Shown here in pieces: positions 14,847-58,660 of a stretch of DNA of 64,000 nucleotides. The DNA is from Methanoregula sp. (GTDB lineage: Archaea; Halobacteriota; Methanomicrobia; Methanomicrobiales; Methanospirillaceae): contig JAUSBW010000022.1 in the NCBI GenBank assembly GCA_030651815.1, positions 1 through 64,000 on the forward strand, read 5' to 3'. Both the position numbers and the translations under genes were made by a program. Position 1 is the first letter of the stretch. The number at the start of each line of letters is the position of its first letter. The notes under the pieces were generated by a model, which did not search any database, had not been told where the DNA came from, and was given only the letters and a program-made list of their open reading frames with translations.

Positions 14847-15917
14847 TTACATGTCAGTAGGATTATCCGGCTCATCGTCCCGGTACGTTTTTTCCGGCAG
14901 TTTTGTCTCTTTTAGCATCCGGTCAAAATCGCTTTCAAAAAGCCGGTCCTGGACAATACGGTATTTTTCAAATTCAGTCTCCGCATACTCTTTTGCCATC
15001 TCTGCCGTTACTTTCCCGCCATCTTCAAGCAGTTTCCGGTCATCGAACACGAGGAACCGGTCAAGACGTTTTGCCCAGTCTTCCATGGTCATGGGTATCT
15101 GTCGTCGGGCGCGATCTTCAGCCAGATCAAGCCAGGCATTGACAACCCTGCCAAGTGATTCAAGCTCTTGCGAAGTCAGGTAATTTTTTGCTACCAATAC
15201 ATCGGTCTTTAAAATTTTTCCGTCGGGACTGTTCTCCCACGTGTTCAGTCCCATGTGATCGTTTCTGCTGTCGGCACGCTTTATTATCAGTTCGGCTGCG
15301 GTATGACCGTGAATTGCGAAATGCAATTTGTTCTGGACTTTAGCAAAAAAATCGCGGGTTGTGGGGGCATTCCTGTTGTAATCAATGCTTATGGCATATA
15401 TGTCGGTGATCTTCTGGTAGAACCGTCTCTCGCTGAGGCGGATCTCCCGTATCTCTGCAAGTAAGCGCTCAAAGTAATCTTTTCCAAGGAACGTACCGTT
15501 TTCCATCCTTTTTTTATCAAGTACGTATCCCTTGACGGCGAATTCCCGCAATACCCGGGTTGCCCACTGGCGAAACTGGGTGGCTCTCTTTGAATTGATG
15601 CGGTATCCAACCGAGATTATCGCATCAAGACTGTAGTATTCAAGATTCCGTGAAACGTCACGGTTTCCTTCAGTACGAACTATTAGAACTTTTCTAATAG
15701 TTGCTTCGCGGGTTAGTTCACCGCTCTCAAAAATTTTTTTCAGGTGAAAATTTATTGTCGGAATGCTCACGTCAAAGAGCGTTGCCAACATCTTCTGGCT
15801 GAGCCAGATCGTTTCATCCTCGTACCGGACTTCGATTGATTCTTCACCGGCGGTTGAAGTAAATATCAGGAATTCTGCTGTGCTGTTTCTTATCAGATTC
15901 TTTTCATGTCCGGTCAT
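14847..15917 (-). CDS. RhuM-family protein
   Basis: ESIEVRYEDETIWLSQKMLATLFDVSIPTINFHLKKIFESGEL...YYSLDAIISVGYRINSKRATQFRQWATRVLREFAVKGYVLDKKRMENG. Confidence 0.85.
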   Translation of the reverse strand: MTGHEKNLIRNSTAEFLIFTSTAGEESIEVRYEDETIWLSQKMLATLFDVSIPTINFHLKKIFESGELTREATIRKVLIVRTEGNRDVSRNLEYYSLDAIISVGYRINSKRATQFRQWATRVLREFAVKGYVLDKKRMENGTFLGKDYFERLLAEIREIRLSERRFYQKITDIYAISIDYNRNAPTTRDFFAKVQNKLHFAIHGHTAAELIIKRADSRNDHMGLNTWENSPDGKILKTDVLVAKNYLTSQELESLGRVVNAWLDLAEDRARRQIPMTMEDWAKRLDRFLVFDDRKLLEDGGKVTAEMAKEYAETEFEKYRIVQDRLFESDFDRMLKETKLPEKTYRDDEPDNPTDM

Positions 15918-16021
15918 TTCACATTTCCTTCAACAATCGCAATCTCCTCTGCCGTCAGCCCGTACAACTCGTACACCCGTTTATCGATCGCCGCATCCGC
16001 CGCATCGAACCTGAACTTCAT
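15914..16021 (-). CDS. Truncated RM tail mini-ORF (copy E)
   Basis: MKFRFDAADAAIDKRVYELYGLTAEEIAIVEGNVK*; stop overlaps the RhuM ATG (ATGA). Not in the ORF track. Confidence 0.7.
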   Translation of the reverse strand: MKFRFDAADAAIDKRVYELYGLTAEEIAIVEGNVK

Positions 16022-16027
16022 CACGAG

Positions 16028-17164
16028 TTACCCAGCCTCCGAAGTGTTGAGAGCAGTTTCTGACCATTCGATCAGTTTCTTCTTCAGTTCCTCTTTTGAG
16101 GGCAGGTAGAGTTGATACTGGGAAGCGTAGATGTTCGCATTCTCCGGCAGGGTAAGTTTAACGAGGGCATCGTTCTTTGTCTTGCAGAGGATCATGCCAA
16201 TGGTAGGGTTCTCATCGTCGAGTTTTACCTCGCGGTTGTAATAATTGACGTACATCTGCATCTGCCCGAGGTTCTCGTGCGTGAGTTTTCCGATCTTGAG
16301 GTCGATCAAGACATAGCACCGGAGGATGCGGTTGTAAAAGACGAGGTCCACATAGAAATGGTCGGCATCGAAGGTGAACCGTTTCTGCCGGGATTCGAAG
16401 AGAAATCCTTTGCCAAGTTCCAGGAGAAATATTTCCAGTTTGTCGATGATGGCGGATTCGAGATCGCTCTCGGAGTAGTGTAAATTCTCATCAAGCCCGA
16501 GGAATTCGAGAACATAGGGATCTTTGAGCACGTCCTGCGGATTTCCGATGATCTGTCCTTTATCTGCAAGGGCTTTTACTCCTTTTTTATCCCGGCTGAG
16601 TGCGAGTCGTTCATAGATTCCGGAGTTGAACTGCCGTTTGAGTTCGGAGAGCGACCACTGGTTTTGTTGGGATTCGATCTCGTAAAACCGGCGCTCATCC
16701 CGTTTGTCGATATTCATGAGGAAGAGGTAGTGCGACCAGCTGAGGGTGAAGGCAGGTGTGAATTGGGCAGACAGTGTTTGCCCAATTGGAGTTTCTGTCG
16801 GTGTTTTGGCCGGCAATTGCGCAGACAGTGTTTGCGCAATTTGCGGAGTTACGTCGTGGTATTCAAGATAAAACCGGCGTATATACTCAAGATTTCTTTT
16901 CGAAAACCCGCGTCCGAGCTCTTCGGTCAAGCGGTGTGAGAGTTCTTTCAATATTCGTTCACCATATCCCGCCCGACTGCTTCCCTTCTGCTCATACTCC
17001 ACGATCCGCCGGCCAATCTCGAAGTTGGTGACGACCTGCAGGGTGTTGACGTTCTGTGCAGCAGTCCGTCGTGCGCTTTGCACCAGATCCCGGATTTCTT
17101 TGATGAGGGGGAGGAGGGGTTCTCCGGGTGACGGACTTTTGGATTTTTCGGGTTTTTCTGGCAT
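16028..17164 (-). CDS. YhcG/DUF1016-family PDDEXK nuclease-domain protein
   Basis: FEIGRRIVEYEQKGSSRAGYGERILKELSHRLTEELGRGFSKRNLEYIRRFYLEY...FYVDLVFYNRILRCYVLIDLKIGKLTHENLGQMQMYVNYYNRE. Confidence 0.9.
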   Translation of the reverse strand: MPEKPEKSKSPSPGEPLLPLIKEIRDLVQSARRTAAQNVNTLQVVTNFEIGRRIVEYEQKGSSRAGYGERILKELSHRLTEELGRGFSKRNLEYIRRFYLEYHDVTPQIAQTLSAQLPAKTPTETPIGQTLSAQFTPAFTLSWSHYLFLMNIDKRDERRFYEIESQQNQWSLSELKRQFNSGIYERLALSRDKKGVKALADKGQIIGNPQDVLKDPYVLEFLGLDENLHYSESDLESAIIDKLEIFLLELGKGFLFESRQKRFTFDADHFYVDLVFYNRILRCYVLIDLKIGKLTHENLGQMQMYVNYYNREVKLDDENPTIGMILCKTKNDALVKLTLPENANIYASQYQLYLPSKEELKKKLIEWSETALNTSEAG

Positions 17165-17456
17165 TTTTTTATCTCCTCACTTGCGGTTTTTTTAATCTGC
17201 TAACGCAGTGCGACGTTATGATCTCCCGAGTGTTTATCCTGAACAGGTAATTGGTTTTGAATCCTGCATCAAGCCATAGGGAACATGCGGCGGGCATCTG
17301 GACTTACTACTGAGTTAGGGTTCTCTTCCTTTTTCTGGTTGTTGCTCTTGCTGGGGGAGACCTCCCGATGCTTTGAGTGAAACCGGTATTACACAGGGAG
17401 CGGTTGCGTATCTTTTGTTTTTTTAGAGGGCTACCTATGAGCATCATCGTGAGAAG

Positions 17457-18461
17457 TTAATTTACTTCACGACAGGGAATTAACCGAATCAGTTTATGGA
17501 TGGCATCTTCTGATAAGGTATTTTCCCGGGAAGTGATGTATCCACATAGCCGGTGAGGTGTGACAACATCGATATATTTGTCAATCCTTATGCCGGGCTG
17601 CTGGCCGTGCAGAGAGACTACCACACTTCGTATTTTTGGCGCATTTCCAAATAACCCGTAGCTGTCTTTCAGGTAATACCAGAGTGCATAGTTTGCACGT
17701 TGTACCTGGTGTGCCAGATCATCAGATTTTTTTCCGATGTCGGAAGTTTTCCAGTTTTTGGTTTCCAGTAAAATGATCCCTGTAGGCCCTATTACCAGGT
17801 GATCGATCTGGCTGGTTTTGATGTGTTCATTTCTTTTCTTCCAGTAAATGTATTTATTGAAGTGAAGGTTGACATCATTCAAAACATGGTATTCATCGGG
17901 TAACCGGGAGAGGACACTGATAACGTGCTCCTCTCCTTTTGCCCCGATCAGGAACGAGATATTTTCGGTTATGAATTTTTGATTGGAGATGACATTGTTG
18001 CATTCGTTTTTGATCACATACGGTTTGTTGGTGATGAGACTTGCCTTTCGGGATTGAACATTATGCAATTCTCTTGATATATGCGAGAGGGGACCGTGTA
18101 TCCTGTGTGATCTCAACGAACGTGCAATCCAATGTTGTACTTTGTATCCCAGAAATCTGATGACATTCTCAGTATTTTCGATCTTTGTTTTGATTTCGTT
18201 GATATTCCCGTCCACCTCTACGGTGCGAATGGCGATACTTTCCCGTAGTTGGCTGTCGAGCCGAACTTCATTATTGCCTAAGCTGAGAATCATCTCGTCC
18301 TGTTGTTGCTGAACGGTGATTTGAGTCTCGGCGAGGATTGCCTCGTAATTGCTATGAAAATGATCGATGTCTTCCAGGGTCGCCAGTTTTTTCCTGTTGA
18401 TGGGCTTAGTTCCGTTCAATAGATAGCGGGTGCTGCCGGAGATTCCGTGGATTTTTGCCAT
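17457..18461 (-). CDS. NERD-domain (nuclease-related) protein
   Basis: GAKGEEHVISVLSRLPDEYHVLNDVNL...SQIDHLVIGPTGIILLETKNWK. Confidence 0.82.
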   Translation of the reverse strand: MAKIHGISGSTRYLLNGTKPINRKKLATLEDIDHFHSNYEAILAETQITVQQQQDEMILSLGNNEVRLDSQLRESIAIRTVEVDGNINEIKTKIENTENVIRFLGYKVQHWIARSLRSHRIHGPLSHISRELHNVQSRKASLITNKPYVIKNECNNVISNQKFITENISFLIGAKGEEHVISVLSRLPDEYHVLNDVNLHFNKYIYWKKRNEHIKTSQIDHLVIGPTGIILLETKNWKTSDIGKKSDDLAHQVQRANYALWYYLKDSYGLFGNAPKIRSVVVSLHGQQPGIRIDKYIDVVTPHRLCGYITSRENTLSEDAIHKLIRLIPCREVN

Positions 18462-18491
18462 TGCATTTCCTTTCCTTTTTTCTGTGTCGTA

Positions 18492-21400
18492 TTAGTGAGA
18501 TGAGCCTTCGACAATCGCAATCTCCTCCTCAGTCAGCCCGTAGAGATCGTACACCAACTTGTCAATCGCCGCATCCGTCGCCTCAACCTGCCGGGACAGC
18601 AGCGTCTTCTCGTGATCGAGGGTGGCGTCCTGCAACTTTTTATTTAACTCCAGCATCTGCGTGACGAGCGCGACCATGCGATCGTGGTGGGCTTTGTCTG
18701 CGGGGTTATTTGGATCAAACTTAGGAATTGGAAATTCTTCTAAAGTATTTGTGTTAATTTTTGGAAACGCAGCTCTGTCGAGATTTACATTTTTTGATTT
18801 TATGTAAGCACCGCATGTATTGGATGCCAAAATCCCTAAGAAAAATAAAATATCAGGTCTTTCAATATTTTTTGGGAGTAGTGAAATAACATCTGTATTG
18901 CAAATATATTCTTCATCAATAAATGTTACATCTAATCGGTCTTTTGAAACAATTCTTTGAACTAAAATTCGTGATCCAACGAAGATATCATGATTCCTTG
19001 GAGCTGCAAGATTCACTCCATATTTTATCCAATCATTTTCCCATTTATAATAGTACCTTTTTATGTTTCTTGCTCGTAGTAATGGTTTGTATGTATCATC
19101 TAATTTCTTCTCTGCATCAAAAATTTTATTTTTCATCATATTTTTTGTCTGATGCGGAACACCTTTTCCTTCTTCATAAGGTTTCATTCCAAATTTAAAA
19201 TTGAAAAAATTCTTCAAAAAATCTTGCCCCTCCAATTTTAAGGGATTTTGGAATGAGATGGATATTATCTGATCAGAAGATGTTATCAAATAATTAGTAT
19301 CAAATGAAAAAGTTTCATTAATAATTGCATGAAGTCTTTCATTTATTGTTTTAAACATCCGATTAATACAACAAATACGAACCTCTTTTGGAAAAACAAT
19401 CTTCACTGCCTTTTCTAATACCAAAATTAAGGTATCAACAGTTGCATTTTCAAAAACCTTGTACACATTAAGGATTTCATTAACATTATTTTCAATAATC
19501 ACAAAATTTCGTAATTTGTTATCATATTTTGTCGAGAGCCAATAATTCGGGATAATCATCCCGAATAGCCCATTAATTTTAAGTAATTTTATTCCTTTCT
19601 CCACGAATAGTCCATAGGTATTAATCTGATATTCAACGGTCGAATATCGATTTTCAAAATATTCTTTACTAAGTTCATCAACTCTTCCTTCTCTTGATTG
19701 AATATACGGCGGATTCCCAATCACCGCATCGAACCCACCCGCCGCCATCGCCGGCGCAAATTCCTTTGACCAGTCAAACGGGTTGATCCGCTTCACTTCC
19801 TCGCCCGGCATCTCCGGCGTCAAAATGTCCCAGCCAATCAACGAGTTCCCGCACTTGATATTCTGGTGCAGCGAGGGCAGTGCCCGTTCCGCGAAGAGTT
19901 TGAGCTGCTTGTCGATGTTCTCCTCGTTCTCCTCTTCGAGCACTTTCAACAGGAGCGAGAGTTTCGTTACCTCGACTGCCTGCGTATCGATGTCCACGCC
20001 GAAAATGTTGTTTAAGAGAATGCGTTTCTTCTCGACAGTCGTAAGCCGCCAGTCGCTCCGCGTCCGGGTGGCGTCGCCGCTCGTGCCGGCCTTGTATATC
20101 GGAAGATCGACCTGTGAGAGTTTCTTCTTGCCACGCGGTGCGGCTTCGGGCAGGAGGGCGAGGACGGCCGGGTCGGTCACGGATCTCTTATCGATGAAGA
20201 CCGGGACGAGATTTTCGATGTACCAGTCGCGGTGCCAGTCGAGGAGGAACTGGTATGCCCCGATCAGGAACGAGCCGGAGCCGCACGCGGGATCGAGGAC
20301 GCGGAGCTTCGCCACATCGCGGGGGGTCTTGTCCTTCGTGAGTTCGCCTACAGTGTGCTTCACGATGTATTCCACGATATACTGCGGCGTGTAGAAGACC
20401 CCGCCTGCCTTCTTCACTTCCGGTTTGTATTCCACCTTTGCCTGGTGGCCATCCGTGAGCCGGATCACTTTGCCGAGGAACTGCTCGTACACGTGACCGA
20501 GGATCTCTGGCGGGATGACCGAGAACAGGTACGGGGTTTCCGGATAGTAGAGCCGTTTGATGATCCCTTTGAGCACCTTGTCGTCGATGGTTAGTGAGAG
20601 GGAGAGGGTGTCGGGCATCTCGTCCCAGTCCGGTTCCTTCTCGAAATGGAAGAGCCCGGAATTGTACTTCGCATCTGCCTCACGGAAGTGTTCGCAGAGC
20701 CGGGCATAGACCTGCTCGCCTTCGAGCAGCTTATGGAGCGTTGCGTACTCCTCGATCCCCCGGTCCTCGCAGATCCGCAGGAAGATGATCCGGTCGATAG
20801 TCCGCTGGACAACCGTGTTCAGTTCATCTACCGAAAGCGCGGGGTTGCGGAGGGCGAGGTTCTTTGCCAGCGCATCCCGCCATGACTCGATCTCAGTCAG
20901 GATATCGTCATCCACCGTCGCCGTCCCTTTCTTGCCCTTATGAGACCCGGCATACTTGTCAAACGATCCTTTCAGGATGCTCTCCTGCGAGAAGACCGAA
21001 ACGAGATACTCCCACTTTTCAGGAATCTCCCTGTACGTGAAATACTCGATCCGTCCCTTGGCGGCATTGTCCCCGTTCCCTGGCTTGATCGTGCAGTCAT
21101 AGACCGCAAACTCCTCAAAATTAGTCAAAATGGAGAGAGGCAGTTTGGCGTTCCATGCGTACCGGCGCAGCTGGAGCGCGGAATCGGCATCATCCTTGAT
21201 CCGCACGGACGGCTTTTTGGTCTCGACAATGAACTTCCGGATGCCCCCGATGCGAAACGTGTAATCAAAAAAATAGGTTGTCCCGCGAATCCGGATCGGT
21301 TCTTCGTGCAGCACTTCACGATAGGCTTCCGAATGTCCCTTGTTGTTGTTCACATCCCAGCCCAATGCATGGAAGAACGGATCGGTGAAATCCTGGCGGA

Positions 21401-21497
21401 GCTGGGTTTCGTTGTATTTCTCCTGCCCGCGAATGTAGGCATCGCGATGGAATGTGTACTTGTCAACAAGGGGCTGGATCGTTTCGGGGACTGCCAT
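18492..21497 (-). CDS. Type IIG-like restriction-modification enzyme (Eco57I/TaqI-like)
   Basis: 1001 aa; DYTFRIGGIRKFIVETKKPS (PD-(D/E)XK-like), LDPACGSGSFLIGAYQFL (SAM), FDAVIGNPPYI (NPPY), TaqI-like C-terminal region, coiled tail HHDRMVALVTQMLELNKKLQ. Confidence 0.9.
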   Translation of the reverse strand: MAVPETIQPLVDKYTFHRDAYIRGQEKYNETQLRQDFTDPFFHALGWDVNNNKGHSEAYREVLHEEPIRIRGTTYFFDYTFRIGGIRKFIVETKKPSVRIKDDADSALQLRRYAWNAKLPLSILTNFEEFAVYDCTIKPGNGDNAAKGRIEYFTYREIPEKWEYLVSVFSQESILKGSFDKYAGSHKGKKGTATVDDDILTEIESWRDALAKNLALRNPALSVDELNTVVQRTIDRIIFLRICEDRGIEEYATLHKLLEGEQVYARLCEHFREADAKYNSGLFHFEKEPDWDEMPDTLSLSLTIDDKVLKGIIKRLYYPETPYLFSVIPPEILGHVYEQFLGKVIRLTDGHQAKVEYKPEVKKAGGVFYTPQYIVEYIVKHTVGELTKDKTPRDVAKLRVLDPACGSGSFLIGAYQFLLDWHRDWYIENLVPVFIDKRSVTDPAVLALLPEAAPRGKKKLSQVDLPIYKAGTSGDATRTRSDWRLTTVEKKRILLNNIFGVDIDTQAVEVTKLSLLLKVLEEENEENIDKQLKLFAERALPSLHQNIKCGNSLIGWDILTPEMPGEEVKRINPFDWSKEFAPAMAAGGFDAVIGNPPYIQSREGRVDELSKEYFENRYSTVEYQINTYGLFVEKGIKLLKINGLFGMIIPNYWLSTKYDNKLRNFVIIENNVNEILNVYKVFENATVDTLILVLEKAVKIVFPKEVRICCINRMFKTINERLHAIINETFSFDTNYLITSSDQIISISFQNPLKLEGQDFLKNFFNFKFGMKPYEEGKGVPHQTKNMMKNKIFDAEKKLDDTYKPLLRARNIKRYYYKWENDWIKYGVNLAAPRNHDIFVGSRILVQRIVSKDRLDVTFIDEEYICNTDVISLLPKNIERPDILFFLGILASNTCGAYIKSKNVNLDRAAFPKINTNTLEEFPIPKFDPNNPADKAHHDRMVALVTQMLELNKKLQDATLDHEKTLLSRQVEATDAAIDKLVYDLYGLTEEEIAIVEGSSH

Positions 21498-50428: not shown

Positions 50429-51196
50429 TTAAGCGCCTGTATGTTCTTTTGCGAGTGACCGTATCTTTTCTGCAAGCTCCCTCACAACCATCCGTGCAGG
50501 ACTATTTAGCGGAACCTGTGATACCGGAGTTGCAGCAAGATCCGCTGCTTCTACGCTGTAATCATCCGGAAGAATCGCAATCGGGATTTCATTGCCGATA
50601 TCAACCGGGGCAGTACCCGACTTGTATTTATTGAACACGATATGGATCTTTGCCGGTTCCAGCCCGAGCAGGGTGGCAATTTCCCGTATCCGTGAGATGG
50701 TCCGCAACCCTCGTGCACCGGGATCACTGACGATCAACAGCATATCGGGTTTTCCTATGGTCCCCCTGCTGATATGCTCCATGCCCGCTTCCGTGTCAAT
50801 AACAATAAACCGGTATTCCCGTTCCAGTTCTGTCATACATTCTGACAGGAGATCGTTTGCAAAACAGTAACACCCGCTGCCTTCCGGTCTGCCCATTGCA
50901 ACAAGATCAAATCCTTCTGCCTCGACAAGAGCCTGCCGGAACCTGAAACGGACATAATCATGCCGGTTCATGCCGGGCGGAATCCTGCGTGTAAACGCTT
51001 CCTCCCGCATGCTGCCCAGTGTCTCACTGACCGTAACCCCGAGAGCCTCGTGAAGATTTGCATTGGGATCCGCATCGACTGCAAGTACCGGTTTTTCCCC
51101 GATATCGATAAATGACCGGACAAGCAGTGAACAGAGGGTTGTCTTTCCGGTCCCGCCTTTACCGGAAACGACAATGGTGAATGGACGTGATAGCAT
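50429..51196 (-). CDS. cooC: CooC-like nickel-insertion/accessory ATPase
   Basis: TIVVSGKGGTGKTTLCSLLV (P-loop), AVDADPNANLHEALG, VIDTEAGMEHISRGT. ATG at 51196 preferred over 51538. Confidence 0.88.
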   Translation of the reverse strand: MLSRPFTIVVSGKGGTGKTTLCSLLVRSFIDIGEKPVLAVDADPNANLHEALGVTVSETLGSMREEAFTRRIPPGMNRHDYVRFRFRQALVEAEGFDLVAMGRPEGSGCYCFANDLLSECMTELEREYRFIVIDTEAGMEHISRGTIGKPDMLLIVSDPGARGLRTISRIREIATLLGLEPAKIHIVFNKYKSGTAPVDIGNEIPIAILPDDYSVEAADLAATPVSQVPLNSPARMVVRELAEKIRSLAKEHTGA

Positions 51197-51221
51197 GGCA
51201 GAAATCCTTTTTTTGCGGTAA

Positions 51222-52265
51222 TCAGGTATAGTTCTGACGGATTCGATGCGAAATCTCAGCTGCTGCCTGCATGATATCCCGGGCAGAATTGCGATCGGCA
51301 AACCGGATCCCGCAACTTGGCGTGATAAGTGACTGTGCATCGAAGAGCTGTTCAGGCATATGCGTGCAGAGCTGCGTGCGGATATCAAGATATTTCCGGT
51401 ACAGGGATTCAGTGGTTTCTGTTGCGAAAATCCGGGAATCTGAAGGAACGATGCCCCATGCAACAACCCCGCCCCGCTCCATATATCCGGTAATTGTGTC
51501 CGGGTAGAGAAGGAATTCTTTTGCCGTTGCGTAGGCATCGATAGAAACTACTGATGGATTGAGCATAAGAATAAATTCCCAATCCGTATTCGAGCAGCAA
51601 TGGATACCTAATCCTCCTTCTGCCAGCGAGGCAATGTCTTCCCACCCGGACCTTACCGTCTCTTTGTCTACGGGCACAACAGAAGAACCCAATGATGCGA
51701 GATACGGTTCGTTGAGCACGATTAAGGTTTCTTTCACCCCGGTCTTATCTTTCATCTCCGACTCACACCAGCGGGCTTTTAATGCCAGCATCTTTGCAAG
51801 TACGTCTGCGAGCTGGGTATCGTAATAGATCGGACGTTTGTCTGCATCCACGACCTGCATACCAAACGTAACCGGGCCGGTGACCTGGTATTTCAATATG
51901 CTGACATTAGTCAGATCGTGCGACATCATCTCGGTAAATGCGGAGGCATAATCCCGGTGCAGGGCATAGGATGCAAAATTTTTCTCCACATAATCCATGT
52001 ACACCTGTTCAATTGCAGCGGTATGATCGGTGGTGCTGTCAAAGAGGAGCCGGTCATCGCGTATCATCCGCCCGGGCAACTGTTCCGAGTCATTATAGAC
52101 AATACTCTCCAGTTGTCCCCGGTCGGGAAGTGTTGGGATGTAAGGAACTGATGGGAAGATCTCCAGCACATCCCGGCATGCCTCGATAGGATCTTTGTGG
52201 GGCAGGGCACCAACACCGGTTGCCTGTGAATAGGGGGAAGGAATCATCTTTGCCATTTCCCTCAC
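51222..52265 (-). CDS. MetE C-terminal-domain-like (core methionine synthase-type) protein
   Basis: ATGVGALPHKDPIEACRDV, ILKYQVTGPVTFG, VLNEPYLASLG, GIHCCSNTDWEFIL, ITPSCGIRF; lacks the MetE N-terminal half. Confidence 0.75.
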   Translation of the reverse strand: MREMAKMIPSPYSQATGVGALPHKDPIEACRDVLEIFPSVPYIPTLPDRGQLESIVYNDSEQLPGRMIRDDRLLFDSTTDHTAAIEQVYMDYVEKNFASYALHRDYASAFTEMMSHDLTNVSILKYQVTGPVTFGMQVVDADKRPIYYDTQLADVLAKMLALKARWCESEMKDKTGVKETLIVLNEPYLASLGSSVVPVDKETVRSGWEDIASLAEGGLGIHCCSNTDWEFILMLNPSVVSIDAYATAKEFLLYPDTITGYMERGGVVAWGIVPSDSRIFATETTESLYRKYLDIRTQLCTHMPEQLFDAQSLITPSCGIRFADRNSARDIMQAAAEISHRIRQNYT

Positions 52266-54163
52266 TCCTTTGCTATCCGGCAGGAGTCCAGGAGTTTCTG
52301 TACCATGGGAAAGAGCGTGAGATCGGTGTGGGGCAGGAATGTACTGGAGGTGTACTCGTCCATGAAAGATGACTCGGCATTAAGCTCAATATAGGCAATC
52401 CGGCATGCAATATCGTCCAGGATTTTTCTCTTCCTCCGGTTGATGAGCGCGATATTTGCGCCGGTTACTGCCCCGTTTCCGATATTGATGATCTGTTCGA
52501 TGCCGATTTCAGGGATGAGGCCGATGATGGTTGCATTCTTTTTGTTGATGTAGTTCCCAAATGCACCGGAGAAATAAATGATGCTGATCTCTTTTCTGGT
52601 AATGCCGGCCTGATTCATCAGGGTCACACAGGCGGCATGTACCGATGCTTTACTCATGATCAGGTTTTTGACATCATTTTCTGTTATTACAATGTCTTTG
52701 CCTATACCGGTCTCTGCTGCCCATGCGATAACATACTCGGGAAAGTGTCCGCTCGTGCGTATTCGCGGGTTGGGAATACCGGTGTTAATGCGCCCGGTCC
52801 GGTCGATAACACAGGTACAGATGAGTTCTGCCAGAAGATCGATAAGTCCGGAACCACAGATGCCACGGGGTTTTATCCCATTGATCGTGGAATACACCGG
52901 ATTGAGCGTGCCCGGTTCGATGGTGATCTTTTCAATCGCTCCCGGGTTTGCCCTCATGCCAAAGAGCACCTCGCCGCCTTCAAGTGCAGGGCCGGCTGCG
53001 CCTGCACAGGAGAACATCCACTCACTGTTGCCGAGTACGACTTCAAAATTGGTACCGATATCGATTAAAAGGGATATCTCTTCTTTCTCGTTCATGCCGC
53101 AGGCAAGGATGTCTGCGATGATGTCACCCCCTATAAAATCGCTCACTGCAGGGAAGACATAGAGTCCTCCATTGGGGTTGCAGGAGATGCCGATTCTCCC
53201 AGTTGCTACCGAGAGTGCCCTGCGTACCACCGGAACATAGGGTTCAGCGATCATATAGGCCGGATCGATTCCCAGCAGCATATGGGTCATTATAGTATTT
53301 CCCGCAACCACAACTTCGTAGATATCCTCCCGGTCGATGCCTGCCGTATTGGATGCCGAGGTGATAGCAGCATTGATGCTCTCGGTAGCAAGTGCCTGAA
53401 GTTTTACAAGCCCGTTTTTGCGGGCAAAATTCACGCGGGCAAGGATATCCTCACCACAACTGATCTGCCGGTTGTAATTCGATGCAACACCGACAACTTT
53501 ACCGGAGACCAGATCCCAGAGGTACACAACAATTGTTGTAGAGCCCAGATCAACTGCTGCACCATAGAGTCTTTTTGACGTATCATTTTCCTGCAAATCC
53601 ACCAGGCGGTACCCGCCCGGCACAAGGGCAACAGTGCCGGTCGATTTCCAGTCGGAATGGCGCAGGATTGCAGGAATTTCCCGGAGCACTTCTAAGGGAA
53701 CATACATCTTTTCGGCGACGGGACCGCCGTCTTTCTGGATGCCCCAGAGCAACCGGGAAAGATCCGGTGAGGGATCGGAAAGTGTAGGGGGCTGGAGTTC
53801 AACATAATATTTCCTGACAGACGGGTGAAATTCAATGGCGGTTTCCTGTCCGTCAATGAGGATCTTCTGTTCCTGGATTAATGTGCTCTCGGGAATAAAC
53901 ACCTGTAAATCGCTTTCTATCGTTGTTTCGCAGGCAAGGCAGGCTCCCCGTGCACGTTCATCCCTGGTAAAAAACTGCTCGTATTTCTGATAGTCAAAGC
54001 TTGTCTTACCTGACTGGACATAGACGATACATTTCCCGCATTTTCCCAGACCCCCGCAGACAACGTTGATGTTCAGCCCGGCCCGTTGGGCAGCATCAAG
54101 AATTGTACTGCCCCGGGGGATCTCGATCTTGCGATAACCGGGAAGGAAAGTTACTGTTCGCAT
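52262..54163 (-). CDS. acsV: RACo-like ASKHA corrinoid reductive activator with N-terminal 2Fe-2S domain
   Basis: VCGGLGKCGKC...CLAC (ferredoxin), GAAVDLGSTTIVVYLWDL (ASKHA), LIDIGTNFEVVLGN, CAGAAGPALEGG. Confidence 0.88.
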   Translation of the reverse strand: MRTVTFLPGYRKIEIPRGSTILDAAQRAGLNINVVCGGLGKCGKCIVYVQSGKTSFDYQKYEQFFTRDERARGACLACETTIESDLQVFIPESTLIQEQKILIDGQETAIEFHPSVRKYYVELQPPTLSDPSPDLSRLLWGIQKDGGPVAEKMYVPLEVLREIPAILRHSDWKSTGTVALVPGGYRLVDLQENDTSKRLYGAAVDLGSTTIVVYLWDLVSGKVVGVASNYNRQISCGEDILARVNFARKNGLVKLQALATESINAAITSASNTAGIDREDIYEVVVAGNTIMTHMLLGIDPAYMIAEPYVPVVRRALSVATGRIGISCNPNGGLYVFPAVSDFIGGDIIADILACGMNEKEEISLLIDIGTNFEVVLGNSEWMFSCAGAAGPALEGGEVLFGMRANPGAIEKITIEPGTLNPVYSTINGIKPRGICGSGLIDLLAELICTCVIDRTGRINTGIPNPRIRTSGHFPEYVIAWAAETGIGKDIVITENDVKNLIMSKASVHAACVTLMNQAGITRKEISIIYFSGAFGNYINKKNATIIGLIPEIGIEQIINIGNGAVTGANIALINRRKRKILDDIACRIAYIELNAESSFMDEYTSSTFLPHTDLTLFPMVQKLLDSCRIAKE

Positions 54164-55498
54164 TTATTGTTTCCACTCCTCGTGTAAAAATTCCCCAATC
54201 TCTGCTGCGTCCCGTGGCCCGACCAGTACTTTCCATCCGGTTGCCTCTTCGATCCTGCCCGATAGCGGGGATGCGTATCCCGGTATAATGAGTTTCCGGT
54301 GGGATACCTCATCTTCAAGGGCGAATTTTTTTATTGAGTCTTTCACCAGCATCTCACTGAGTTTTCCTGCAGCAACTGCAGTGAGCACCGAGAGTCCCTC
54401 GGTGTCGACAATCAGCATGAAGCAGGGCATGCGGGTGGATTCAAGATATCCCTGCAGGGTAAAGAACGTGAGTGAAAAGTTCACGGTCATCAGGACCGGT
54501 GCATCCTTTCCCGGGTTGCCTACACGATAAATACCCGGGTTCATCTGAATCGGTTTCTGGGGATCAGTGTAAATATTCTGGCGCAGGGTCAGTGCCGCTT
54601 TTGCAGTTGCAGAAGAGAGCGGGGTGCAAATAATGACTGAAGCATATTTTGCAATACCCAGTGCAATCGCTGCATCCTGCATCTCCATTACCGAAGCATC
54701 GAGAAATACCGGGTACCCGAGATCGGGCGCTGACCGGGTGATGGCAAGCTGGCGGATGGTTGTGGATCGGACAATAAATGCCTGTAACGATTCCGGTGAA
54801 AGATCCAGTAAAAGATCCTGCACTCCGTCTGCTGTGCAATCTTTGGTCAGTTGTGCGAGTTCATCAATATTCTTTGCCTTGATTACCAGTGGGCAGCCAT
54901 GTTGTTTTGCCAGTGCACAAAATTCCTTACGATTTTCCTGTGTAGCGGCGTGGATAAGCGGCCGGTACGTTCCGCAATGCGTAAGAGCGGCAGACAGTGC
55001 TACAGGATCCGCAGTCATCAGCACCAGTGGCAGGTCCGCAGTTTTTTCAACTGTTTCGACCGCCCGGCTGAAGCTGTCTGCAGAACCACTGGCATTTTCT
55101 ATTGCAATCCCGTTAAACCGGAGAATCACTCCAACGCGGGTAAAAGACTCATTAAGGACTTGTGTTGTAACAGCCCGAATCTCATCGGGGGTTTGCGTGT
55201 CAGCAATCTTAAACAGGATGCCCGGGGGGTGATAAAACGTCTTTTCGTGACGATAGAGAACAAACTCTTCGCCAACTGCAAATGAATGCTCACCAATACC
55301 GAGCTTGACAAGCCTGACAGGGGGGCGTGTCGTAGCACCCAGTATCGATTTGGCTGCATCATCCAGGTACGGGCAAAGGTCCATGTCAGCTTTACCCCCG
55401 GCAAGTTTCATGGCAAAGGTCAGGCAGGTGGGATCGCCGCATTCCTTGCAGTTTTTCTTAGGCAGGAGTTTATAGATGTCGAGTGCTTTGAGTGCCAT
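54164..55498 (-). CDS. acsC: CoFeSP large subunit (acetyl-CoA decarbonylase/synthase gamma)
   Basis: LPKKNCKECGDPTCLTFAMKLAGGKADMDLCPYL [4Fe-4S] motif; TIM-barrel/B12 region; 444 aa. Confidence 0.93.
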   Translation of the reverse strand: MALKALDIYKLLPKKNCKECGDPTCLTFAMKLAGGKADMDLCPYLDDAAKSILGATTRPPVRLVKLGIGEHSFAVGEEFVLYRHEKTFYHPPGILFKIADTQTPDEIRAVTTQVLNESFTRVGVILRFNGIAIENASGSADSFSRAVETVEKTADLPLVLMTADPVALSAALTHCGTYRPLIHAATQENRKEFCALAKQHGCPLVIKAKNIDELAQLTKDCTADGVQDLLLDLSPESLQAFIVRSTTIRQLAITRSAPDLGYPVFLDASVMEMQDAAIALGIAKYASVIICTPLSSATAKAALTLRQNIYTDPQKPIQMNPGIYRVGNPGKDAPVLMTVNFSLTFFTLQGYLESTRMPCFMLIVDTEGLSVLTAVAAGKLSEMLVKDSIKKFALEDEVSHRKLIIPGYASPLSGRIEEATGWKVLVGPRDAAEIGEFLHEEWKQ

Positions 55499-55499
55499 G

Positions 55500-56456
55500 T
55501 TACTGCCCCCCATCCGATACTTTTCCCGCTTTAAGATTTGAAAATGCTTTTCTGAGTAGGGGAATTGTCCGGGGGTGCCGAACACAGATGATCTCTGCAC
55601 CGGCTGCTGCTGCTGCAAGTCCGGTTGTGAATTCCCACTGGACTGCGATATCGTCCTGTATGGCCGGTTCTGCCTCCCTTACTTCTTTTACGGTTAATGA
55701 ATCGATGGCAGAACAGATGATTGGCATGGCAAGATCGGCATCCCCTTTCAGTGCAGAAAACCGGATCCGCTCCATCGCTGAATAGGAATACTCAAAGCCG
55801 TAGCCCAGCGAGCCGGTATACGGATCGATGACTATGTGGTCCCGGGATACACCGATCTCCTTTAACAGGATGTTGAGTTGTTTTGCAAGATTGACATCGA
55901 TCGGTGACTGGGCAATCACAGCATGATTGTAGGCCATGGCGGCGGCAGCAATACTGCGGTACCTGCCTGCTTCAGCAGTTCCGAGTAACATGCGTTCTCC
56001 TTCGCCTGCTTCTCCGCATTTTAAGAATACATCGCTGTCAATTTTTGGTTCATTGCTCCCCTCGATGATGAGTGGCAGGCTGGTACTGGACAGCACGGCA
56101 TCTACAGTCTTTCCCAGGGATGCAATATCTGAAAAATTCCGCTGTCGGGTGCTGGTCAGGTACAGGCGGACCATGTCCGCTCCATAGACAGAATCTGCGG
56201 ATTTGGCCCATTCCCCGCAATCATTTGCCTTATCCCCGCAATAATTTCGGACAATCGGGGACCAGTTTTGCGGGTCATCACAGATCTCAAAGGCGATGAG
56301 CGGAGCAGAAGAGTCCGGTGTTTTTTCAAGGAACGGAAGTGTTTTTCCTCCGCCAATCCGGTAAGAGATTCTGCGGGTTCCCCCATCGGTCTTTGTTGCA
56401 CCGAGCATCACTACGGTGATCGTGCCACTCCAGCCAAACTGAACATCAAACCCCAT
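55500..56456 (-). CDS. acsD: CoFeSP small subunit (acetyl-CoA decarbonylase/synthase delta)
   Basis: MGFDVQFGWSGTITVVMLGATKTDGGTRRISYRIGGGKTLPFL, VIDPYTGSLGYGFEYSYSAMERIRFSALKGDADLAMPIIC; 318 aa. Confidence 0.93.
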   Translation of the reverse strand: MGFDVQFGWSGTITVVMLGATKTDGGTRRISYRIGGGKTLPFLEKTPDSSAPLIAFEICDDPQNWSPIVRNYCGDKANDCGEWAKSADSVYGADMVRLYLTSTRQRNFSDIASLGKTVDAVLSSTSLPLIIEGSNEPKIDSDVFLKCGEAGEGERMLLGTAEAGRYRSIAAAAMAYNHAVIAQSPIDVNLAKQLNILLKEIGVSRDHIVIDPYTGSLGYGFEYSYSAMERIRFSALKGDADLAMPIICSAIDSLTVKEVREAEPAIQDDIAVQWEFTTGLAAAAAGAEIICVRHPRTIPLLRKAFSNLKAGKVSDGGQ

Positions 56457-56463
56457 GATCTCC

Positions 56464-58494
56464 TCACACCAGTGGTTTCATAGTCAGAGCCGGGTGTTTG
56501 ACGTCATCAAGATACACCATGAGGTCTTTAAGGGTGGCAGCTTTTGTCTCATCTGCGATCTTATCAAACAGGTCCGTTCTGCCCTGTTCAGCAAGTTTTT
56601 TTACCAGTCGCGGTTTGAGCTCTTCTTTGAGTTGCGCGGGCATCCAGACAAGGCGTTCTATTCCCCCCTCACCCTGCAGGAACTTGTCAGAAAGAATATA
56701 CCCTTTTGAAATTCCTGCAAACCCCGGCGTCTGTGCACCGCCCCCGATAGTGCCGGCAAGGGTAGAAAACGACATGCCCGAAGGAGTCAGTCCTACGAAC
56801 TCACGGTTCACCACCATGATCCCGTTTACTTCGGGAAGCATCAGGGCAATACATTCAAAACACCCGCAACAGGTCATCGGGTGTTCCATGACGCTGTAAA
56901 GCGAGCACCGGTCTACTTCTCCATGGCTGGCTTTCCTGACAAACCGGTTGATTCCTTCAAATTCCCCGTTCTGGGCATTTATAATCGATCCTTTTTCGAT
57001 TGGCTGGTTTGCACCGGCAGGCGAGATCTCGTACGCGATTTTTCCATCCAGCCAGCTGATGGCTCCGCACAGGGCGGGGCGTTCAGGAGTAATCACGCAG
57101 ACATGGTTAGGTGCAAATGTCTGGCAGAGCGTGCAGGAATAATAGGTGTTCACATCCCCGTCACGCATACCCCTGATGCGGGCATCCCGCTCATCATAGA
57201 CCCGTTCTGCCTCCGTCTTTGCCGCCAGAACTTTTTCCTTATCCGTAATGAGCGTGACCGATACGGCATCCAACAACTGGGGAAAATCCATACGGAACTT
57301 GCTTGCGAGAAGCTTGCCGAGATGTTCGATCTTCACGCCTTTTGCAACGGCCTCTTTCGATAACCTGACCCAGATGATATCCCGCTGGGCAACATGCCAC
57401 GATCCTTCCCCGTAGTTGACAAAATTATGAATCCTTCTCTCGAGGACCGGTTCATAATCTTTTTTCATGGTCTTACCGGCCACTTCGATGATGATTGCCA
57501 GCGGGTTTGCAGACCCTTCATGCATGGAATCGATCTCGGGACCGATGACAGTTACCTGCCCGTCTTTGATATCACCCGGATTTTTCATCCGCAGTAGTTC
57601 AAACGCCGGTGATCTGCCACCCCCAAACTCTGCGTACATCTCCTCTTTCCGGATGCTTTTTCCTTCAAATGCAGGTGAACAACCCATGGGAATAGGGATT
57701 GCGGTCACATTGACACGAATGCCTTTTTGCTCCATGCCAATCCCGACAATATCTTCAGGGGTTGCAGAAATCCATGCGCCTTTCGAATAATCTCCCAGTG
57801 ACAGGATGGGAAATCCAAGCACTCTCATACCATCGACAAGTGCAATTTCCTCATCGGAAAGACCGGGCAGAACGATAACAATGGCCTTTGCCCGTTCCGT
57901 TGCATAGGTAAGAAGCCGGTTTATGTCCCCGGGCGTGACTCCCCCGAACATCATGGCTACGCGGGCAATGATATCTACAAAGTGCACACCATACAATGCG
58001 TTTGAACCAAGGGGGATAAGGCGATAATCAAGACCCAGTTTTACACCAGCAGAAGATAAGGTTGGAATAACCGGGCCGGCAAGGAAGGTGAGCATGTATT
58101 TTTCCTGGAGTTCGCGGCAGATGGCGGCAGCGGCCCCGGCACTTGGGGGTGATCCAACAATGAGGGCGAGGCCGAGAATACTGCCGTCAACAAGTGAATA
58201 ACCGAGTTTCCGTATTATCGTATCGCCAATAAAACCCGTGTAGGGGGACCCTTCTTTGCCATCCTGTGCAGTTTTTTTTGCGAGAATACATTCAGAGGCA
58301 ACCAGTGAGTTATCTTTTGTACGGGACAAAACATCTAAAGAGGTCATCCGGTCATGCACCGGTATACCCGTCAGTGCATAGGATATGGGGAGGTGATAGG
58401 CTGTATCTTCATAAGAAAATGTCCCCTGTATTGTCGTTATTGCTGTTTTTAATTGGCGTTCTCCATTTTCTATTGCCAACTCAACGTCGGTCAT
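56464..58494 (-). CDS. acsB: Acetyl-CoA synthase, full-length bacterial-type (AcsB-like)
   Basis: 676 aa; A-cluster motifs YYSCTLCQTFAPNHVCVITPERPALCGAISW and MTCCGCFECIALMLPEVNG; N-terminal ~300 aa (YHLPISYALTGIPV...) present, a region missing from typical archaeal CdhC. Confidence 0.9.
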   Translation of the reverse strand: MTDVELAIENGERQLKTAITTIQGTFSYEDTAYHLPISYALTGIPVHDRMTSLDVLSRTKDNSLVASECILAKKTAQDGKEGSPYTGFIGDTIIRKLGYSLVDGSILGLALIVGSPPSAGAAAAICRELQEKYMLTFLAGPVIPTLSSAGVKLGLDYRLIPLGSNALYGVHFVDIIARVAMMFGGVTPGDINRLLTYATERAKAIVIVLPGLSDEEIALVDGMRVLGFPILSLGDYSKGAWISATPEDIVGIGMEQKGIRVNVTAIPIPMGCSPAFEGKSIRKEEMYAEFGGGRSPAFELLRMKNPGDIKDGQVTVIGPEIDSMHEGSANPLAIIIEVAGKTMKKDYEPVLERRIHNFVNYGEGSWHVAQRDIIWVRLSKEAVAKGVKIEHLGKLLASKFRMDFPQLLDAVSVTLITDKEKVLAAKTEAERVYDERDARIRGMRDGDVNTYYSCTLCQTFAPNHVCVITPERPALCGAISWLDGKIAYEISPAGANQPIEKGSIINAQNGEFEGINRFVRKASHGEVDRCSLYSVMEHPMTCCGCFECIALMLPEVNGIMVVNREFVGLTPSGMSFSTLAGTIGGGAQTPGFAGISKGYILSDKFLQGEGGIERLVWMPAQLKEELKPRLVKKLAEQGRTDLFDKIADETKAATLKDLMVYLDDVKHPALTMKPLV

Positions 58495-58660
58495 TGTCAG
58501 ATTCCCTCGGATACAACAGTTTCCTTTGTAATACAGATATAGTTTCGTTATGGGGTAAAATACAACAATACATTCCCTTTTTCTATGGTAAGCGTGGCTA
58601 ACGATAACAAAAATATATATCCCTTTTAAAATGTCATTCTCTTTAATGAGAGGCTAGAAA

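Follow-up and report, generated by a model that had tools for sequence, protein, structure and literature searches.

Why should a methanogenic archaeon carry a bacterial-type acetyl-CoA synthase (ACS) with no carbon monoxide dehydrogenase (CODH) beside it? ACS is usually regarded as one half of a CODH/ACS machine. The question is raised by a 64,000-nucleotide stretch of a Methanoregula sp. genome (contig JAUSBW010000022.1; hereafter the window), in which a six-gene operon encodes AcsB, the two subunits of a corrinoid iron-sulfur protein (CFeSP), a reductive activator of corrinoid protein (RACo), a MesB-like protein with the core methionine-synthase fold and a CooC-like ATPase, and in which no CODH gene is encoded. 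We propose from the sequence that the operon forms a module for acetyl-CoA decarbonylation and methyl transfer that works without CODH and would pass the methyl group most probably to homocysteine, a reading to which we give a probability of about 0.5.

The partner to which the operon is tied was sought in 150 genomes of the order Methanomicrobiales. Full-length AcsB occurs in 49 of them, the MesB-like protein in 50, CdhA in 31, the patchily distributed CooS-type CODH in 81 and MesA in 141. The MesB linkage is obligate: all 49 AcsB carriers encode the MesB-like protein, against one of the 101 non-carriers (p=5e-39). A CODH is not: CdhA is absent from 29 carriers, and CdhA and CooS are both absent from nine, namely G004 (single contig, 99% complete), G080, G112 (99%), G035 (98%), G143, G071, G092 and two incomplete genomes. 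CooS shows no enrichment (29 of 49 carriers versus 52 of 101 non-carriers, p=0.39), and the association of CdhA with AcsB (p=6e-5) comes largely from the genus Methanoregula. These tests treat the genomes as independent, although they are related; the MesB link is robust to kinship because every carrier, across five families, conforms to it. The genome sets of CdhC and CdhA are identical (31 and 31). A scan of GTDB contigs gave 75 loci, essentially all from Methanomicrobiales, with L080 being a native-type CdhC locus, and the order acsB-acsD-acsC-RACo-mesB-cooC is kept in the majority of loci that span enough of the operon. Apparent changes of gene order in L049 and L081 are probably due to over-long open reading frames (ORFs) and are not claimed. 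In G053 and G101, the CooS gene adjoins a CooC-like gene (L089:3804-5759 and L090:13779-15971).

In the window, acsB (56464..58494) is followed on the minus strand by acsD (55500..56456), acsC (54164..55498), the RACo gene (52262..54163), the mesB-like gene (51222..52256) and the cooC-like gene (50429..51196), with intergenic gaps of 7, 1, 0, 5 and 25 bp. The original prediction had described this nearly gapless order, the bacterial type of the acs proteins and the lack of a CODH subunit in the window, and it was right on all three. The starts of acsC (a conserved ATG at 55498), the mesB-like gene (52256) and the cooC-like gene (51196) were set by family conservation; given the conserved start at 51196, the 369-aa ORF listed for CooC is about 114 aa too long. 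The resulting 255-aa CooC/AcsF-like P-loop ATPase carries the motif GKGGTGKTT, matches MinD/CbiA ATPases and is a probable nickel-insertion maturase, and its gene comes last in most loci whose sequence reaches the end of the operon. Upstream of acsB by 41-53 bp, the block CGAAACTATATCT (58535..58547, minus strand), conserved in an upstream-region alignment of 27 Methanoregula-type loci, looks like an archaeal promoter with a transcription factor B recognition element and TATA box.

The 676-aa AcsB is of the bacterial type. Against NF040764, the equivalog profile of bacterial AcsB (cut-off 800 bits), it scores 911.9 bits over profile positions 5-705 of 705, the N-terminal domain included, whereas the native CdhC of the same genome reaches 511 bits and matches from position 296 onward only. 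The cut-off of TIGR00316, the profile of archaeal CdhC, is also exceeded by AcsB, because the catalytic domain is common to both; however, CdhC proteins of that type are about 460 aa long, have no N-terminal domain and are co-encoded with CdhA/B, and AcsB does not fit this description. Its closest relative in the PDB is the Carboxydothermus ACS (640 bits; 47% in alignment). The A-cluster cysteines C454, C457, C466, C476 and C543-G-C545 are invariant in an alignment with the Carboxydothermus protein and native CdhC, and are conserved across 61 loci. The N-terminal part starts 26 residues later than that of Carboxydothermus ACS and carries deletions of nine and seven residues. In bacterial complexes, the N-terminal region where these deletions fall sits near CODH. 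The phenylalanine of the CO alcove (F183, equivalent to Moorella F229) is present in all full-length ACS sequences aligned and in at least 97% of the 61 loci, and it is missing from methanogen CdhC. In acetogens this residue is needed for acetyl-CoA synthesis at low CO, and Clostridium autoethanogenum cannot grow autotrophically without its equivalent (PMC11321310).

The CFeSP and its activator are equally well defined. AcsD, the small subunit (318 aa), scores 352.8 bits against NF003376, above the cut-off, and its gene conservedly adjoins acsB; AcsC, the large subunit (444 aa), scores 554 bits against PRK04165 and 402 bits against Carboxydothermus AcsC over its full length. In the 633-aa RACo/AcsV-like protein, the Fer2, linker, middle and C-terminal (ASKHA) Pfam domains are all above cut-off. 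It scores 487 bits against Carboxydothermus RACo (3zyy) and 546 bits against the curated AcsV 'exception' profile, under the cut-off of 800 for that profile.

The 344-aa MesB-like protein was assigned from conservation in 44 sequences, an AlphaFold model and Foldseek; Pfam and PDB sequence searches with its profile gave nothing useful. The zinc ligands H222, C224, D243 and C318 (numbered from the GTG start) are invariant in all 44 sequences, and their spacing agrees with residues 214/216/235/311 stated for MesB of Dehalococcoides mccartyi (Q3Z939). The model has a predicted local distance difference test score of 87, and its 13 best fold matches in the PDB are all cobalamin-independent methionine synthases; a UROD/MtaA-type coenzyme M methyltransferase fold is therefore not supported. 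The protein shares 28% identity with MesA of its own genome over 225 residues. A 'hypothetical protein' encoded on a Desulfosarcina ovata plasmid (L125:5968-6996), distant from acs genes, is also MesB-like (26% identity), with residues resembling the zinc site.

The operon does not stand alone in its host. The assembly (3.28 Mb in 285 contigs, 99.9% complete, 3.14% contamination), in which the window is contig C109, has Methanoregula and other Methanomicrobiales metagenome-assembled genomes as its nearest named relatives in the GTDB contig scan. On contig C238 this genome encodes a complete native acetyl-CoA decarbonylase/synthase (ACDS), CdhABCDE, with CdhA scoring 1146 bits and CdhC of 465 aa. 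The operon proteins differ strongly from these native counterparts, with identities of 44% for ACS, 34% for AcsD, 37% for AcsC and 36% for RACo, and have a closer resemblance to their bacterial homologues. The native ACDS has its own RACo gene, and a ferredoxin-like iron-sulfur gene lies beside cdhE (L010:1227-5096), so that one cell holds two pairs of RACo and CFeSP. A CooS-type CODH was absent from the host genome in the order-wide search. Both ACS types also occur together in the Methanoregula relatives G017, G064, G085, G093, G113 and G140, each a single contig, and binning therefore does not explain the pair. An AcsE/MetH-type pterin methyltransferase was not found in the host genome, the sole PF00809 protein being a dihydropteroate synthase; thus a route from methyl-pterin into the operon CFeSP is not evident. 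The gene of this dihydropteroate synthase (TIGR01496, above cut-off) adjoins FolD-like and GlyA-like frames on contig C111 (L126:940-2588), which suggests bacterial-type folate genes in the host methanogen.

How would such a module work? The CooC-like ATPase would mature AcsB, which would then split acetyl-CoA into CoA, CO and a methyl group. The CFeSP of AcsC and AcsD would receive the methyl group, with RACo maintaining its active Co(I) state, and the MesB-like zinc protein would transfer the methyl to a thiol, most probably that of homocysteine, giving methionine. The CO might leave the cell or be oxidised by any CODH of the host, which in this genome would be the native ACDS. We infer the direction of the reaction, the methyl acceptor and the fate of CO; what the sequences themselves show is the gene content, the intact residues of the metal sites, the obligate tie to MesB, the lack of an obligate CODH and the fold predicted for the MesB-like protein. 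Acetyl-CoA cleavage is the simplest reading because CODH is not required, AcsE is absent and the MesB-like partner is invariant.

Several points weigh against this reading, and they bear first on direction. The retained CO-alcove phenylalanine would also suit synthesis. Moreover, archaeal CdhD and CdhE accept methyl groups from methyl-pterins without AcsE, and the absence of AcsE is for that reason not decisive as to mechanism. The main rival for the host genome is that the operon runs in the synthetic direction, combining methyl-CFeSP and CO into acetyl-CoA, the CO being drawn from the environment or made by native CdhA or a CooS-type CODH. The host does have CdhA, 40 of the 49 carriers have CdhA or CooS, and G053 and G101 each carry a cooS-cooC pair on the same strand as the operon, about 2-3 kb downstream of it. 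However, nine carriers, some of them closed or near-complete genomes, have no Ni-CODH, the operon shows no association with CooS, no AcsE-like methyl-donor enzyme was found in the genome and the invariant partner is MesB rather than CODH. We find the synthetic direction doubtful. CooS as a standing partner of the operon was rejected for want of statistical association, although it is nearby in two genera. The original prediction had envisaged a methyl/acetyl module with CODH supplied in trans; a separate methyl module fits the data and supply from the CdhA on C238 is possible in this genome, but as a general rule the trans supply is not supported, since 9 of the 49 carriers lack both CdhA and CooS and CooS shows no association with the operon.

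The remaining points concern the acceptor. MesA is present in all carriers except one 77%-complete genome, which means that methionine would be available independently of the operon. In addition, the residues that contact homocysteine are altered: Asn replaces the residue matching MetE Asp599, which binds the homocysteine amino group, in 41 of the 44 MesB-like sequences, and Ala or Gly replaces the contacting Ser in 37 of them, while the zinc site is invariant. This is unlike the homologues outside the order, which retain the Asp and, in most cases, the Ser (both in another archaeal family, the Asp in Desulfosarcina). Acetyl-CoA might then be cleaved as proposed, with the MesB-like protein methylating an acceptor other than homocysteine, such as coenzyme M or an intermediate toward methyl-H4MPT (tetrahydromethanopterin), and this would explain the constant retention of MesA. 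Nevertheless, the best fold matches are methionine synthases and not coenzyme M methyltransferases, some members (L012) keep both Ser and Asp, so that Asp and Asn may be interchangeable at this position, and methanogens with both MesA and MesB were already noted by Price et al. (PMC7857596); we regard a different acceptor as rather unlikely. CODH-free cleavage that feeds methyl groups to such an acceptor, possibly coenzyme M, is a specific proposal that we hold to be improbable. If it were true, it would be a CO-releasing route that bypasses ACDS and brings the methyl group of acetate into methyl metabolism or methane, and it would account for both the retention of MesA and the changed homocysteine-contact residues.

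Cleavage with transfer to homocysteine also has to be set against loss of function. The operon could be what is left of an ancestral CODH/ACS in decay, with its CODH lost and little function retained, as the patchy distribution (49 of 150 genomes) and the partial Codh/Acs gene sets of Methanoculleus (Nagoya et al. 2021, PMC8621161) might imply. Yet every metal ligand is conserved across 44-61 sequences, gene order and promoter are conserved, and a separate complete ACDS coexists in Methanoregula, so the operon is not that complex minus some pieces; a remnant is very improbable. An origin in misassembly, misbinning or a contaminating bacterial contig, conceivable given the contig number and contamination of the assembly, has a negligible chance and is refuted by closed relatives that hold the operon on a single contig, by archaeal genes flanking it in the window (FtsZ, a proteasome subunit, PCNA, a pyruvoyl arginine decarboxylase), and by the recurrence of the PdaD and PEGA flanks in most Methanoregula loci that reach far enough.

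Where the operon came from is partly answered by its phylogeny. The AcsB proteins of Methanomicrobiales form one clade (bootstrap 100) apart from two bacterial sequences, two CdhC and one further archaeal lineage; trees with those few reference groups do not single out a donor. Across 21 genomes, distances between AcsB proteins track the distances for the core gene MesA (Mantel r=0.74, p=0.0001), and the two group the families in largely the same way. As the AcsB tree follows the organisms, the operon is probably old in the order, with mostly vertical inheritance and frequent loss. Of the earlier suggestion that the acs operon was laterally acquired, acquisition as such is still plausible, but a recent gain is not borne out by this tree and by the spread of the operon over five families. 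In the search for a bacterial donor, IMG/VR yielded no relatives, and in a plasmid collection only Acetoanaerobium matched for AcsB. Elsewhere in the window, an apparent genomic island, recognised by inspection only (14847-21497, minus strand), contains RhuM-like, DUF1016/PDDEXK-like and NERD-like genes and a 1001-aa restriction-methyltransferase-like ORF.

A different arrangement of ACS and CODH was seen in another family of the same phylum. In genomes G168 and G150, a single ORF of about 1380-1407 aa without internal stops joins a CooS/AcsA-type CODH of about 640 aa to AcsB, and AcsD and AcsC come next (L167:6555-10775, plus strand; L168:8167-12300, minus strand). Cys and His are conserved at the expected C-cluster positions, and the ORF is, as predicted from its sequence, a natural CODH-ACS fusion. 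Similarly long frames occur in G159 and G185, with a possible fifth case in G177.

In Methanomicrobiales, an order of common methanogens, many hydrogen consumers thus carry a bacterial-type ACS that is regularly detached from CODH and tied instead to a methyl-transfer protein, in some cells alongside a complete native ACDS. The study that reported partial Codh/Acs sets in Methanoculleus also found that Codh/Acs-deficient strains require acetate (PMC8621161); we read the genomes described there as partially Codh/Acs-deleted as holding a different, intact module. If the proposed cleavage is true, detection of acsB, acsC and acsD in Methanomicrobiales would not be evidence for CO2 fixation, methanogens bearing the operon could release CO, and the operon would allow the Dehalococcoides pathway, and the methyl transfer from CFeSP to MesB that the cited literature predicts, to be tested in an archaeon.

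Compared with known systems, the operon shares its chemistry and homologous subunits with archaeal ACDS (CdhABCDE), but CdhC has neither the N-terminal domain nor the alcove phenylalanine, CdhD is longer, and CdhC occurs with CdhA in 31 of 31 genomes, whereas the operon AcsB is often found without CdhA. It resembles the acetogen acs operons of Carboxydothermus, Moorella and Acetoanaerobium in its AcsB with an N-terminal domain, an AcsD of about 318 aa, an AcsC of about 445 aa, RACo and CooC/AcsF. In contrast to these, it has neither acsA (CODH) nor acsE and carries a MesB-like gene instead, and the N-terminal part of its AcsB is shorter, with deletions relative to Carboxydothermus. Linkage of mesB to acsC and acsD in methanogens is already published (Price et al. 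2021, PMC7857596), as is the Dehalococcoides pathway; the passages of that paper concerned with these clusters are silent on the ACS type, the absence of CODH and a second native ACDS. We found no description of an order-wide, CODH-free and MesB-linked bacterial-type ACS, and priority is uncertain because the literature on the evolution of CODH/ACS and of Methanomicrobiales was incompletely covered. The likeness to D. mccartyi lies in having ACS and CFeSP but neither CODH nor AcsE, together with a MesB-type core methionine synthase. In that bacterium AcsB and AcsCD operate without CODH, labelling shows that the methyl group of methionine comes from acetate (PMC7005905; PMC7857596), and CO is released and accumulates (PMC6113397). 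At the level of genes the same set is found here, with AcsB, AcsC, AcsD and MesB, no AcsE in the operon and no obligate CODH. However, the present host is an archaeon that makes methane, possesses a methyl-H4MPT pathway and MesA of its own, and holds the genes in a single compact operon, RACo and CooC included; in Methanoregula this operon stands alongside a complete native ACDS.

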